Assembly (NCBI GenBank): GCA_030830965.1
Contig: JAURLX010000004.1
Coordinates: 124,001 to 188,000, forward strand
Direction of reading: 5' to 3'
DNA: 64,000 bases
DNA from: Verrucomicrobiota bacterium
GTDB lineage: Bacteria > Verrucomicrobiota > Verrucomicrobiia > Opitutales > UBA953
Below, piece after piece: positions 51,973 to 55,808 of this stretch. A model generated the notes under the pieces. It had not been told where the DNA came from. It saw only the letters and a program-made list of their open reading frames with translations, and did no database searches. The position numbers and the translations under genes are program-made. How positions within the stretch are numbered: the first letter of the stretch is position 1; each line of letters begins with the position of its first letter.

Positions 51973-53229
51973 TCACATCGCCGCGATGATGCCGTCGCCG
52001 AACTCGGAACACTTGATCTCGGTCGCGCCCTGCATCTGGCGGGCGAAGTCATAAGTCACGCGTCCGGAGCCGATCGCGCCGTTGAGTCCCTTGAGGATGA
52101 GGTCGGCGGCCTCGGTCCAGCCGAGGTAGCGCAGCATCATCTCCCCGGAGAGCACCACCGAGCCGGGGTTCACGACGTCCTTGTTGGCGTACTTGGGAGC
52201 GGTGCCATGGGTGGCCTCGAAAATGGCGTGTCCGGTAAGGTAGTTGATGTTGCCACCCGGGGCGATGCCGATGCCGCCGACCTGCGCCGCGAGGGCATCG
52301 GATAGGTAGTCGCCGTTGAGGTTGAGGGTGGCGATGACATCGAAGTCGGAAGGGCGGGTCAGCACCTGCTGGAGGGTGATGTCGGCGATGGCGTCCTTGA
52401 TGACGATGCCCGCCCCAGGACGGCCCTCGGGAATCCTGCACCAGGGGCCTCCGTCCAGGGGCTGGGCGCCGAACTCCCGCTGGGCGAGCTCATAGCCCCA
52501 CTTCATGAAGGCGCCTTCGGTGTACTTCATGATGTTGCCCTTATGGACCAGGGTCACCGACTTGCGCCGGTTTTCGACGGCATACTGGATGGCGGAACGG
52601 ATCAGGCGCTCGGAACCGGGCCGGGACACGGGCTTGATGCCCACGCCGACGGACGCCGGGTCCTCGGAGCCGAATCGGATCTTCTTGAACTCCTTGGGGA
52701 AGTTGGCCTTCAGAAACTCGAGGGTCTTGGTCGCGATCTCGGAACCGGCCTCGAAATCGATGCCGGCGTAAATGTCCTCGGTGTTCTCACGGAAGATCAC
52801 CATGTCCACCTTGCCGGGATTCTTGACCGGCGAGGGGACGCCGGTGAACCACTGCACAGGACGCAGGCAGACATAGAGGTCCAGCTGCTGACGGAGGGCG
52901 ACGTTGAGCGAGCGGATGCCGCCGCCGGTGGGGGTGGTGAGGGGGCCCTTGATGCCGACGAGGTAATCGCGGAAGGCGGTCAGGGTCTCCTCGGGCAGCC
53001 AGTTCTGGGTCTTGTTGAAGGCCTTCTCGCCGGCGAGGACCTCGAGCCACTGGATCTGCCTGCGTCCCCCGTAGGCCTTGGCCACGGCGGCGTCGAAGAC
53101 CCGCACCGAGGCGCGCCAGATGTCAGGACCTGTGCCGTCCCCCTCGATGAAGGGGATGATCGGACGATCGGGCACGGTCAGCTTGCCCTGGGAGATGGTG
53201 ATGCGTCCGGCGTCGGAAGATGTGCTCAT
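51973..53229 (-). CDS. icd: NADP-dependent isocitrate dehydrogenase
   Basis: TCA-cycle enzyme converting isocitrate to 2-oxoglutarate. The 418-residue prokaryotic homodimer type is recognised from [14 protein letters not shown], Ser107 in [19 protein letters not shown] (the equivalent of the regulatory phosphorylation site), [14 protein letters not shown], the catalytic Lys and Tyr region, and [13 protein letters not shown]. No aceK is seen, so phosphorylation is not implied. The ATG at 53229 is preceded by a hairpin rather than a ribosome site. Confidence 0.97.
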
Positions 53230-53244
53230 GTCGAAGTCAGCAAG

Positions 53245-53269
53245 AAAACCCCGCCCGGAGGGGCGTTTT
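53245..53269 (-). promoter_or_regulatory. Hairpin upstream of icd
   Basis: On the plus strand CGCCC (53252-53256) pairs with GGGCG (53261-53265). Flanking AAAA (53245-53248) can pair with TTTT (53266-53269) across a small bulge. It lies 15 bases before the icd ATG, after the terminator of the upstream RHH gene. A leader attenuator or extra terminator are both possible. Confidence 0.45.
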
Positions 53270-53292
53270 CAAGCCGATTCGGGGATTACCTC

Positions 53293-53326
53293 GGAAAAAG
53301 AAAAGGACCCCCTTGCGAGGGTCCTT
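53293..53326 (-). terminator. Rho-independent terminator of the RHH/lysine-tail gene
   Basis: On the minus strand AAGGACCC, an eight-base loop and GGGTCCTT (53326 to 53303) form an 8-bp stem followed by TTCTTTTTCC. It separates the RHH gene from icd. Confidence 0.92.
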
Positions 53327-53381
53327 GTTGACCGGCGGAGCCGGCGCCATCCGCCCCGGAGGACGGAAAGTCTAAGAAGAA

Positions 53382-53447
53382 TTACTTCTTCTTGGACTTC
53401 TTGGCCTTCTTGGCGCCCTTCTTGGCGGCCTTCTTCTTCTTAGCCAT
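53382..53447 (-). CDS. Possible separate 21-residue lysine-rich peptide (internal start of the RHH gene)
   Basis: The in-frame ATG at 53447 begins MAKKKKAAKKGAKKAKKSKK plus a final Lys. AAGGA (53455-53459) lies seven bases upstream, a textbook Shine-Dalgarno spacing in a window where such sites are rare. The same codons form the tail of the longer RHH protein. Either the tail is made both ways, or the true gene is this small basic peptide and the upstream RHH frame runs into it. Similar Lys/Ala-rich peptides occur in several PVC bacteria (from memory). Confidence 0.5.
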   Translation of the reverse strand: MAKKKKAAKKGAKKAKKSKKK

Positions 53448-53798
53448 AGTTTTTTCCTTATTTTGGGTCGTTGTTTGGTTAGAGGGCAGCGCCTGAAGCG
53501 CCACCCTGACGATTCGCCCCACGCTCACCCGGGCGTTGCGCGCCTGACGAGTGATTCTGCTACGGAGCTCCGACGGGACTCGGAAAGAAACCTGGCGTGA
53601 CCTGGGGGATTCCAGGTCGTGACGGGAGTCGGTGAAGCGGTCCAGCGCATGCCGGATCACTTCGGAGAGGGTGGCGAACCCCGACCTCTGCTGGAAGGCG
53701 ACGGTCTCGGAGTGGAGCTTCGCAGGAAGCGACACGGTGATGAGACTTTCGCTCAGGGGTTCGGTTCGGTTCGTCACGTCGCGGTCAACTCTTGTCAT
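53382..53798 (-). CDS. Tandem ribbon-helix-helix protein with histone-like lysine tail
   Basis: A 138-residue protein. Two ribbon-helix-helix units lie in tandem: residues ~19-55 (LITVSLPAKLHS then TLSEVIRHALDRF) and ~69-104 (RQVSFRVPSELRSR then VSVGRIVRVALQAL). Each has a beta-strand followed by two helices, the DNA-binding fold of CopG/MetJ proteins. A tail at 118-138 is almost wholly Lys and Ala, as in histone H1-like bacterial proteins. A monomer with two RHH units would be its own pseudo-dimer. ATG at 53798 abuts AAGG too closely; TTG at 53828 or GTG at 53777 are alternatives. Partners and targets are unknown. Confidence 0.65.
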   Translation of the reverse strand: MTRVDRDVTNRTEPLSESLITVSLPAKLHSETVAFQQRSGFATLSEVIRHALDRFTDSRHDLESPRSRQVSFRVPSELRSRITRQARNARVSVGRIVRVALQALPSNQTTTQNKEKTMAKKKKAAKKGAKKAKKSKKK

Positions 53799-54089
53799 CC
53801 TTATTAGGCGAAGCGCGCGGATGCGCAAGAGGAATTTTTCAATCCTCCCGAGAGGCGCGTCCGGGACCGGATGAGGAAGAAAATGTAAACGCGGTTCGGA
53901 TACGAACGCGCGGCCGCCGACGCATCGTCACGCGCGCGACGAAGAAGACGCCTGCGCTCGTCGAGCGCCGCGCGAGCGCATGGAAGATGGAAGGCCCAGG
54001 CGACGCGCACTCCCGTTCGTGACCCTCATGCCGAGGGCCGCTCATGCGCCGGCAGGCGGCATGAGCAGACCGCGACGGCGGGCGGACGG
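53799..54089. other. Intergenic region upstream of the RHH gene, with inverted repeats
   Basis: No gene is visible. Near 54025-54066 there are interleaved inverted repeats: CTCATGCCG (54025-54033) with CGGCATGAG (54057-54065), or alternatively GCTCATGC (54040-54047) with GCATGAGC (54059-54066). They could end the RNase E/G transcript, though no T-run follows. The minus strand upstream of 53798 carries TTGCGC and TAATAA spaced 16 apart, a possible RHH promoter that would place transcription start very near the ATG. Confidence 0.5.
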
Positions 54090-55808
54090 TCAGCGCAGCT
54101 CCCGGCCGGAGGCCGCGTCGAAGAGGCGGAACGACTCGACGCTGTAGGTCGGGTCGGCCTTGGTGCCCAGCTTCACCTTGCAGGACTTCATGAGGTCCCG
54201 GAAGAAGTCCCGGTCCTCGGTGACGATGCGCTCCAGATTGACGGGGTGCAGGAGGATGTTGATCTCCAGCTCCCGGTCGGGGCCCTGGACCTCCCGCAGC
54301 TTCCGGATGACACTGAGCAGCTTACGCTGCACCTCGACGGAGACGGTGCGGGGGTTCTTGACGATTCCGCGCCCCTGGCAGTGGGGGCAGGCGGTGTACA
54401 TCGAGGTCGTGTTGGACTCCGTGTGACGCTGACGGGTCATCTGGAGCACCCCCAGCTGCGAGATCGGGAGGATCTGGTGCTTGGCGCGGTCGTTCTCCAT
54501 GGACTCCCGGAGCCGGTCGAAGACCTTCTTCCGGTCCTTCGGGTTCTTCATGTCGACCGTGTCGATCATGATGAGTCCGCCGAGGTTGCGCAGCTGGATT
54601 TGGCGGGCGGCCTCGGCCACCGCCTCGAGGTTGGCCTGCACGATGTAGTCCTTGCCGTCCTTCCCCGCCCCCTTGTGGGAGCCGGTGTTGACGTCGATGG
54701 CCGTGAGGGCCTCGGTCTCGTCGATGACGATCTCCCCGCCGCTGGCCAGAGGCACGCGGCGCTGGAAGAGCTGGTCGATCTGCCGTTCGATGTTGTACCG
54801 CTCGAAGACGGGGATGGGGTCGGCGTAGAGCTCGACCCGCCCCTTGGACCTAGGCGAGACCTCGCCGACGAGCTCCTGCACGAGACGGAAGTCCTCCTCG
54901 TTGTCCACGAGGATGCGGTCGACCTCCTCGGTCAAGAAGTCGCGCACGGTCCGCTCGATGAGCCCAGGCTCGCTGTGCAGGAGCACCGGACGCCGGTCGG
55001 GCTGGTTGATCTTCTCGACAATCTTCTGCCAGCGCAGCAGCAGCAGGTGCAGGTCGCGCACGAACCAGCGGGCCTGCCTGCCCTCGCCGGCGGTGCGGAT
55101 GATCACGCCCATACCCTCCGGGATGGTCAGGGAGCGGAGGATGTCCTTGAGCCGCTCGCGCTCGGAGCCGTCCTCGATCTTGCGGGACACGCCACACGCC
55201 CCGCTGAAGGGCATGAGCACGACGTAGCGTCCGGGCAGCGCGATGTTGGTGGTCGAACGCGGGCCCTTCGTGCCGATCTGGTCCTTGACGACCTGGATCA
55301 CGATGTCGGAACCGGCGGGGAAGAGCTGGGGGATGTCCTTGGCCTGGTAGCGCGCCTTACGCTGCTTCTGCTCGGCGGACTCGTTGTCGCGGATGAACTC
55401 GACCTGGGAGTCGTTGGCCGCCGGCAGCATGTCCCAGTAGTGGAGGAATGCGTTCTTGGGCTGACCGATGTCGACGAAGGCGGCCTTCAGGCCGGCCTCC
55501 AGGTTCTGGACGCGCCCCTTGAAGACGGCGCCGACCATCCGGTTCTCGCCCTTGTGCTCGATCTCGAACTTGTCGAGGACGCCGTTGGTGAGCAGCGCCA
55601 CGCGTTTCTCAAGGGTCTCGCCGTTGATGACGAGCTCGCGGAAGTTGGCGCGGTCCTTGGAGAAGTGCTTGACGATGCGCTGGAGCAGCGGGAGATCCTT
55701 CCGCCGTCGGGCGGCCTCCTCGGCGATCCTGCGATGGTCGATGAGCTCCTGGCCGGACTTCGGCTCGGACTCTTCGTGGATTTCTTCGGGTTCGTTATGT
55801 TCGGGCAT
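54090..55808 (-). CDS. rng: Ribonuclease E/G family endoribonuclease
   Basis: Single-strand endoribonuclease for rRNA and mRNA processing. The 572-residue protein has an N-terminal acidic segment (HNEPEEIHEESEPKSG), an S1 RNA-binding domain (KGRVQNLEAGLKAAFVDIGQ), and the catalytic DNase I-like site with the metal-binding aspartates in TAIDVNTGSHKG and MIDTVDM. A Zn-link CPHCQGRG bridges subunits. It lacks the long disordered scaffold of RNase E, so it is of the RNase G-like or short E type. It lies directly downstream of rodA, seven bases apart. Confidence 0.93.
   Translation of the reverse strand: MPEHNEPEEIHEESEPKSGQELIDHRRIAEEAARRRKDLPLLQRIVKHFSKDRANFRELVINGETLEKRVALLTNGVLDKFEIEHKGENRMVGAVFKGRVQNLEAGLKAAFVDIGQPKNAFLHYWDMLPAANDSQVEFIRDNESAEQKQRKARYQAKDIPQLFPAGSDIVIQVVKDQIGTKGPRSTTNIALPGRYVVLMPFSGACGVSRKIEDGSERERLKDILRSLTIPEGMGVIIRTAGEGRQARWFVRDLHLLLLRWQKIVEKINQPDRRPVLLHSEPGLIERTVRDFLTEEVDRILVDNEEDFRLVQELVGEVSPRSKGRVELYADPIPVFERYNIERQIDQLFQRRVPLASGGEIVIDETEALTAIDVNTGSHKGAGKDGKDYIVQANLEAVAEAARQIQLRNLGGLIMIDTVDMKNPKDRKKVFDRLRESMENDRAKHQILPISQLGVLQMTRQRHTESNTTSMYTACPHCQGRGIVKNPRTVSVEVQRKLLSVIRKLREVQGPDRELEINILLHPVNLERIVTEDRDFFRDLMKSCKVKLGTKADPTYSVESFRLFDAASGRELR

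Follow-up and report, generated by a model that had tools for sequence, protein, structure and literature searches.

Does a single gene of a Verrucomicrobiota bacterium supply a DNA-binding protein with a histone-like tail and, from a second start within the same frame, that tail alone? The question is raised by a minus-strand open reading frame in the stretch of 64,000 nucleotides that was analysed as a whole and that we refer to as the window. The frame (53798..53382) comprises 138 codons plus the stop codon (53384-53382), and its translation is as described earlier. The encoded protein carries two ribbon-helix-helix (RHH) units and then the C-terminal MAKKKKAAKKGAKKAKKSKKK, i.e. the tandem RHH and the lysine tail lie in one frame, just as the first-pass annotation had claimed. 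On the basis of the comparisons given below we consider it fairly probable that this is a gene-within-gene arrangement, in which GTG 53777 would give the RHH-H1 fusion and ATG 53447 the free tail.

The gene, its start and its RHH units

In the window the gene is flanked by rng (54090-55808) and icd (51976-53229), the interval being 51976-55808. The start had been placed at ATG 53798, and this placement did not survive comparison within the genus: GTG 53777-53775 is present in 43/43 same-genus loci and ATG 53798 in 1/43. These 43 are the loci, out of 47, whose start region fitted a script pattern; the other 4 did not fit it. Fourteen of the 43 loci have no other in-frame start codon upstream of the GTG. 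A promoter-like TTGCGC-N16-TAATAA is found at 53801..53828 on the minus strand, with 23 nt separating its end from GTG 53777, and a related TTGCGC-N-TA pattern occurs in 36/43 same-genus loci; a stricter sigma-70 scan of 53250-54050 gave no promoter match. Since ATG 53798 is only 2 nt downstream of the TAATAA of this element, it probably lies upstream of the transcript start. Because of this position and of the conservation of the GTG, the full protein is most likely the 131-residue product of GTG 53777 (53382..53777, minus strand), which consists of the tandem RHH, a linker and the lysine tail. The window protein has full-length open matches, free of stops, in relatives. We also note that a short motif around GTTTAC, located upstream of the promoter at 53880-53905, recurs in many same-genus loci.

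On the 3' side of the gene, a hairpin with a T run that resembles an intrinsic terminator (53303..53326, minus strand) is conserved in the same-genus alignment; the terminator scan found 1 such element vs 1.1 expected by shuffles. The region 53296-53381, 3' of the stop codon, shows strong same-genus conservation and has several inverted repeats ahead of the terminator. The final tail codons and the stop (GAAGAA..TTCTTC) are also able to pair. A search of 53200-54000 against Rfam gave no family at gathering score.

The first RHH unit covers residues 8-52 of the GTG-started protein (53622..53756, minus strand) and the second one residues 60-103 (53469..53600, minus strand). Against Pfam RHH_1 the second unit scores 19.8 bits with the tail and 20.5 bits without it (cut-off 20.5), and the first unit of the window protein scores below the threshold. 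The RHH_1 profile scores of relatives are 31.8-36.3 bits at the same cut-off of 20.5, and the unit equivalent to the first one reaches 36.3 bits in the relative L128 (residues 12-47). In the AF2 model there are four helices at the expected positions, with pLDDT values of about 90-96 in the cores of both units. When aligned with VIA-align, the first unit matches the MazE9, NikR and CopG folds at Z 5.5-5.9 and the nucleoid protein CdbA at Z 5.5, and the second unit matches the RHH of PutA at Z 4.4. In other words, a beta-alpha-alpha fold as in the RHH_1/CopG superfamily is predicted for each unit, at Z values (4.4-5.9) that are modest throughout. The two units may make a self-contained pseudo-dimer, as suggested, but the models do not support it: both units fold in the AF2 models, whereas the pairing of strands is absent according to DSSP from the two monomer models (pTM 0.37 and 0.44). 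Foldseek gave no match in the PDB at E <= 0.001, and NCBIfam gave none above any cut-off. In a sequence search of the PDB, RHH chains such as CopG appeared from E 0.0065 upwards, intermixed with ribosome-recycling factors, which we take as unrelated.

Distribution of the family and of its tail

An RHH profile built from six rows found matches in 204 of the 372 Opitutales genomes and in 60 of the 100 genera. With a second profile there were matches in 53 of the 387 genomes of the phylum, every one of them in Opitutales. The window protein itself matches 39 of 57 relatives, and the named ones, including Coraliomargarita and Pelagicoccus, belong to Opitutales. We read 148 loci, which cover the 204 matching genomes in part. 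Most loci outside the genus that have enough flank carry aspC and/or icd downstream on the same strand. Because this neighbourhood recurs across the order, gene order indicates that this is one orthologous locus across Opitutales. In most of the other Opitutales families aspC is downstream of the gene, ahead of icd where both can be reached, and a gene that we read from its sequence as lipoprotein-like is often found upstream in other loci.

The lysine-rich tail continues the RHH frame in 118 of the 148 loci, so the in-frame fusion is borne out well beyond the window. The first-pass annotation had named homologues with the two parts split by a stop codon as evidence against a dual product, and the loci did not provide it: all 30 tail-less loci have no separate lysine-rich ORF within the flanks searched (0.9-6.7 kb downstream). 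A free-standing H1-like gene adjoining the tail-less RHH members, absent from these flanks at 30/30 loci, was therefore rejected. In the large family f14 (L091-L122) most of the members read consist of the tandem RHH and a stub tail such as KKKK. In a few f14 genomes there are between two and four RHH matches.

The tail of the window protein is short, with 13 lysines and 5 alanines among its 21 residues, and it is disordered in the AF2 model (pLDDT under 50). The tails of six relatives contain 45-54% lysine and 22-37% alanine. In the five of these six that have the junction methionine, the chain from this residue onwards is 87-180 residues long and has a net charge of +47 to +100; the tails of L035 and L079 (117-180 residues, 50-54% lysine) have net charges of +58 to +100. 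A disordered tail dominated by lysine and alanine, as in the H1-like proteins of the AlgP/Hc type, is thus present, and by its composition and length the tail in relatives from other families is a typical full histone-H1-like chain. Two tails that were compared with Pfam gave no match; profiles cover low-complexity tails poorly.

The internal methionine and its surroundings

The putative free peptide, lysine-rich and 21 residues long, corresponds to a nested short ORF that begins at ATG 53447 (53382..53447, minus strand). The occurrence of methionine at the junction between the RHH part and the tail was counted blindly, i.e. the first lysine-dense position was fixed regardless of methionine, and a methionine was scored within +-6 residues of it. 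The sample consisted of the 79 distinct junctions among the 118 lysine-tailed loci of the 148. Methionine is found in 50 of the 79 junctions and in 9 of the 11 families; in 18/35 genera at least half of the junctions have it. A narrower window (-5..0) gave 15/35 genera; it was widened because lysines in the linker shifted the lysine-dense position. The methionine rate of the junction zone, 4.9%, exceeds those of the RHH part (0.49%), the remaining linker (0.73%) and the tail (0.10%). The binomial p value of this enrichment is 1.7e-16 when counted over genera and 1.4e-11 over families; both are overstated, since genera or families were treated as independent and their relatedness was ignored. 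With six loci added by eye, in which the methionine is just outside +-6 (L128, L129, L132, L150, L151 and L152), the count rises to 56/79; two f8 loci with a non-conserved methionine at -13 were left uncounted. The second residue after the junction methionine is proline, alanine or valine in 54 of the 56 cases, and each of these residues permits removal of the methionine.

A junction methionine is present in the cultured Coraliomargarita. It is lacking in the remaining 23 of the 79 distinct junctions, among them every one of the four f8 loci, f6 and the Pelagicoccus-like genera, so that some lineages do without the internal start. GTG or TTG as a substitute start was rejected, as none is common to the 19 methionine-less loci read. 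The single RHH tree, which is poorly resolved, requires at least 12 changes between presence and absence, which suggests that the methionine was lost or gained repeatedly (trees were built from 70 rows, 5 of them from the window genus). In f11, 16 of the 17 distinct junctions retain it despite varying preceding residues, and in the sole exception, L245, methionine and Pro2 are both lost.

The synonymous divergence along the gene was calculated in 8-codon windows from 42 unique same-genus sequences, two partial loci being excluded. Most windows of the RHH part have values of 0.13-0.51; these fall to 0.03-0.16 where the RHH part ends and to 0.00-0.11 for the codons preceding the internal ATG. 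The lowest divergence of the whole ORF is seen in an in-frame leader before the internal start, A/C-rich and unstructured, at 53448..53482 on the minus strand; in the family the leaders are A-rich and G-poor. The same tendency is seen in f11 (19 sequences), where divergence drops from 0.39-0.65 in the RHH codons to 0.14-0.19 at the ATG. These divergences show that the internal ATG and the leader before it are under selection.

The region from -20 to +18 around the internal ATG has an MFE of -0.3 in the window gene. The mean for the junction ATGs is -2.1 kcal/mol (21 genera), as compared to -3.7 for aspC starts (29 genera), -2.5 for RHH starts (58) and -8.75 for internal methionines of aspC (29 genera; p < 0.00001 vs the junction). 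Of the RHH codons, a share of 0.10 matches or exceeds the openness of junctions with methionine, and a share of 0.50 that of junctions without it (p = 0.0013). The surroundings of the internal ATG are therefore open like those of true starts, unlike those of internal methionines or of methionine-less junctions.

The AAGGA sequence that had drawn attention to this site (53455..53459, minus strand) is indeed 7 nt ahead of the in-frame ATG 53447-53445, with 21 residues remaining. Its rarity in the window, which had been put forward as evidence, is another matter: AAGGA-N5..9-ATG has 5 occurrences when both strands are counted, and a first-order Markov null predicts about 3.2. A single site in one window is thus not beyond chance, and the sequence is significant because it is conserved in 45/47 same-genus loci. 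In two same-genus loci the linker is shortened in frame, with AAGGA gone and the ATG retained. At the junction, Shine-Dalgarno pairing is not stronger than it is at codons of the RHH part (p = 0.25), and such a sequence was accordingly rejected as a general signal of the family. Purine stretches of similar kind are seen in g25, g52, g84 and f24 as well; outside the window genus AAGGA is limited to a few lineages and does not mark the family as a whole. All five sites in the window (12142 and 45027 on the plus strand; 15010, 40636 and 53459 on the minus strand) have a spacing of exactly 7, which hints that the remaining four also mark gene starts.

Just upstream of the leader the codons of the second RHH unit and the linker contain an RNA hairpin, AGGGTGGCGC-TTCAG-GCGCTGCCCT (53483..53507, minus strand), that is kept in the window genus and one sister genus. 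It has 10 pairs, and 42 of 49 loci (5 of the 9 distinct sequences) have standard pairs throughout; 0.24% of synonymous recodings are equally stable. By eye, hairpin-like structure recurs in several families. As a family-wide element it was rejected, because the z-scores against synonymous recodings are alike in loci with methionine, without methionine and without a tail (seven partial or doubtful loci and duplicates were excluded), and for this reason we credit the hairpin to the window genus and the sister genus only. It might hold the leader open or protect the end of a processed mRNA.

The claim of an internal start for the tail is thus supported by the comparison, i.e. by the junction methionine, its context and the synonymous constraint. 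The pattern, an internal start with selection on both the codon and its context, is that of genes-within-genes. Its being kept across many bacterial families suggests that the start is really used, and most members probably make both the RHH-H1 fusion and a free H1-like tail.

Interpretation and comparison with known systems

We propose that initiation at GTG 53777 would give a tandem-RHH DNA-binding protein with a histone-H1-like lysine tail, and that a second in-frame initiation at ATG 53447 would give the tail alone, which has 21 residues here and 87-180 in the relatives measured. The RHH part would direct the fusion to preferred DNA sites and might also control its own promoter. In either form, fused or free, the tail would neutralise and condense DNA, and the ratio of anchored to free tail would be set by the two starts. 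With somewhat less confidence than for the two starts themselves, we lean towards an order-wide two-product chromatin gene, which would provide RHH-anchored H1 and free H1-like chains from one mRNA at a set ratio, with the start kept in most tailed families. Having just 21 residues, the free peptide of the window gene may be unstable.

The junction methionine can also be read as a relic. If an RHH gene had joined a free H1-like gene, the fusion could be the sole product and the methionine what is left of the start of the latter; the junction does resemble a former start (M-A/P-x-K-K), and several lineages keep the tail without methionine. A relic, however, is expected to decay, yet methionine is found in at least half of the junctions in 18/35 genera amid diverging linkers, the leader is as open as at true starts, and synonymous sites are constrained in two lineages. 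Moreover, no free-standing lysine-rich ORF adjoins the 30 tail-less loci in the flanks searched, and we find this origin unlikely. Still less probable is that the free tail comes from an mRNA of its own, made from an internal promoter or by processing at the upstream hairpin, instead of from internal initiation. Conservation of synonymous sites does extend upstream of the leader, and the genus hairpin just upstream could cap a processed mRNA, but there is no promoter match in 53250-54050, and the hairpin is not general, given the similar z-scores of methionine-bearing, methionine-less and tail-less loci.

The role of the protein is a separate matter. RHH proteins are mostly repressors or antitoxins, and it is possible, though unlikely, that the gene encodes an ordinary RHH transcription regulator whose basic tail merely raises its affinity for DNA, with no role in nucleoid packing. 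About two dozen f14 members consist of the RHH part and a stub tail, so the RHH part serves a function in its own right. On the other hand, the tails of L035 and L079, with 117-180 residues and charges of +58 to +100, are beyond what a regulator usually needs, and no toxin-like partner was noticed in the conserved neighbourhood in an unsystematic look.

If the two-product reading is true, this is a natural case, order-wide, in which the same H1-like tail is supplied DNA-anchored and free from one bacterial gene, and the anchored and free roles are separable through a single-codon change. It would also add a chromatin example, found by evolution alone, to the bacterial genes-within-genes and provide a lead for nucleoid packing in Verrucomicrobiota. 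The combination is undescribed in the open-access literature that we searched; most subscription journals were outside this scope, so an earlier description is possible.

The closest precedents appear to be RpnL/RpnS for the coding arrangement, AlgP for the tail, CdbA for an RHH nucleoid protein and TraY for the tandem RHH. In RpnL/RpnS an internal in-frame start additionally yields the C-terminal part of the one ORF by itself, as ribosome profiling and immunoblots have demonstrated according to the cited part of that work (PMC10327210). The arrangement proposed here, for which evolution is our guide, would be the same in this respect and different in its products: RpnL/RpnS are a nuclease toxin and an intragenic antitoxin, whereas here there are a DNA-binding fusion and a basic tail. 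Pseudomonas AlgP similarly has a long, disordered, C-terminal H1-like domain rich in lysine, alanine and proline behind a folded N-terminal domain (PMC9239181). Its N-terminus, however, is a 124-residue putative alpha-helical domain in place of a tandem RHH, and the relevant part of the AlgP description mentions no internal start (PMC9239181). Myxococcus CdbA is an RHH protein that organises the nucleoid (PMC7156744), and the first unit resembles it at Z 5.5. This likeness concerns the fold only and does not imply orthology; CdbA binds c-di-GMP, and neither a tandem RHH nor an H1-like tail is described for it in the passages cited (PMC7156744). Finally, TraY of the F plasmid has two RHH units in one polypeptide that make up a whole RHH dimer fold (PMC12117103). 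The window protein shares the two units in one chain, although its AF2 models are without the paired strands of TraY, and TraY differs in being an accessory protein of conjugation, with no lysine tail mentioned in the cited section (PMC12117103).
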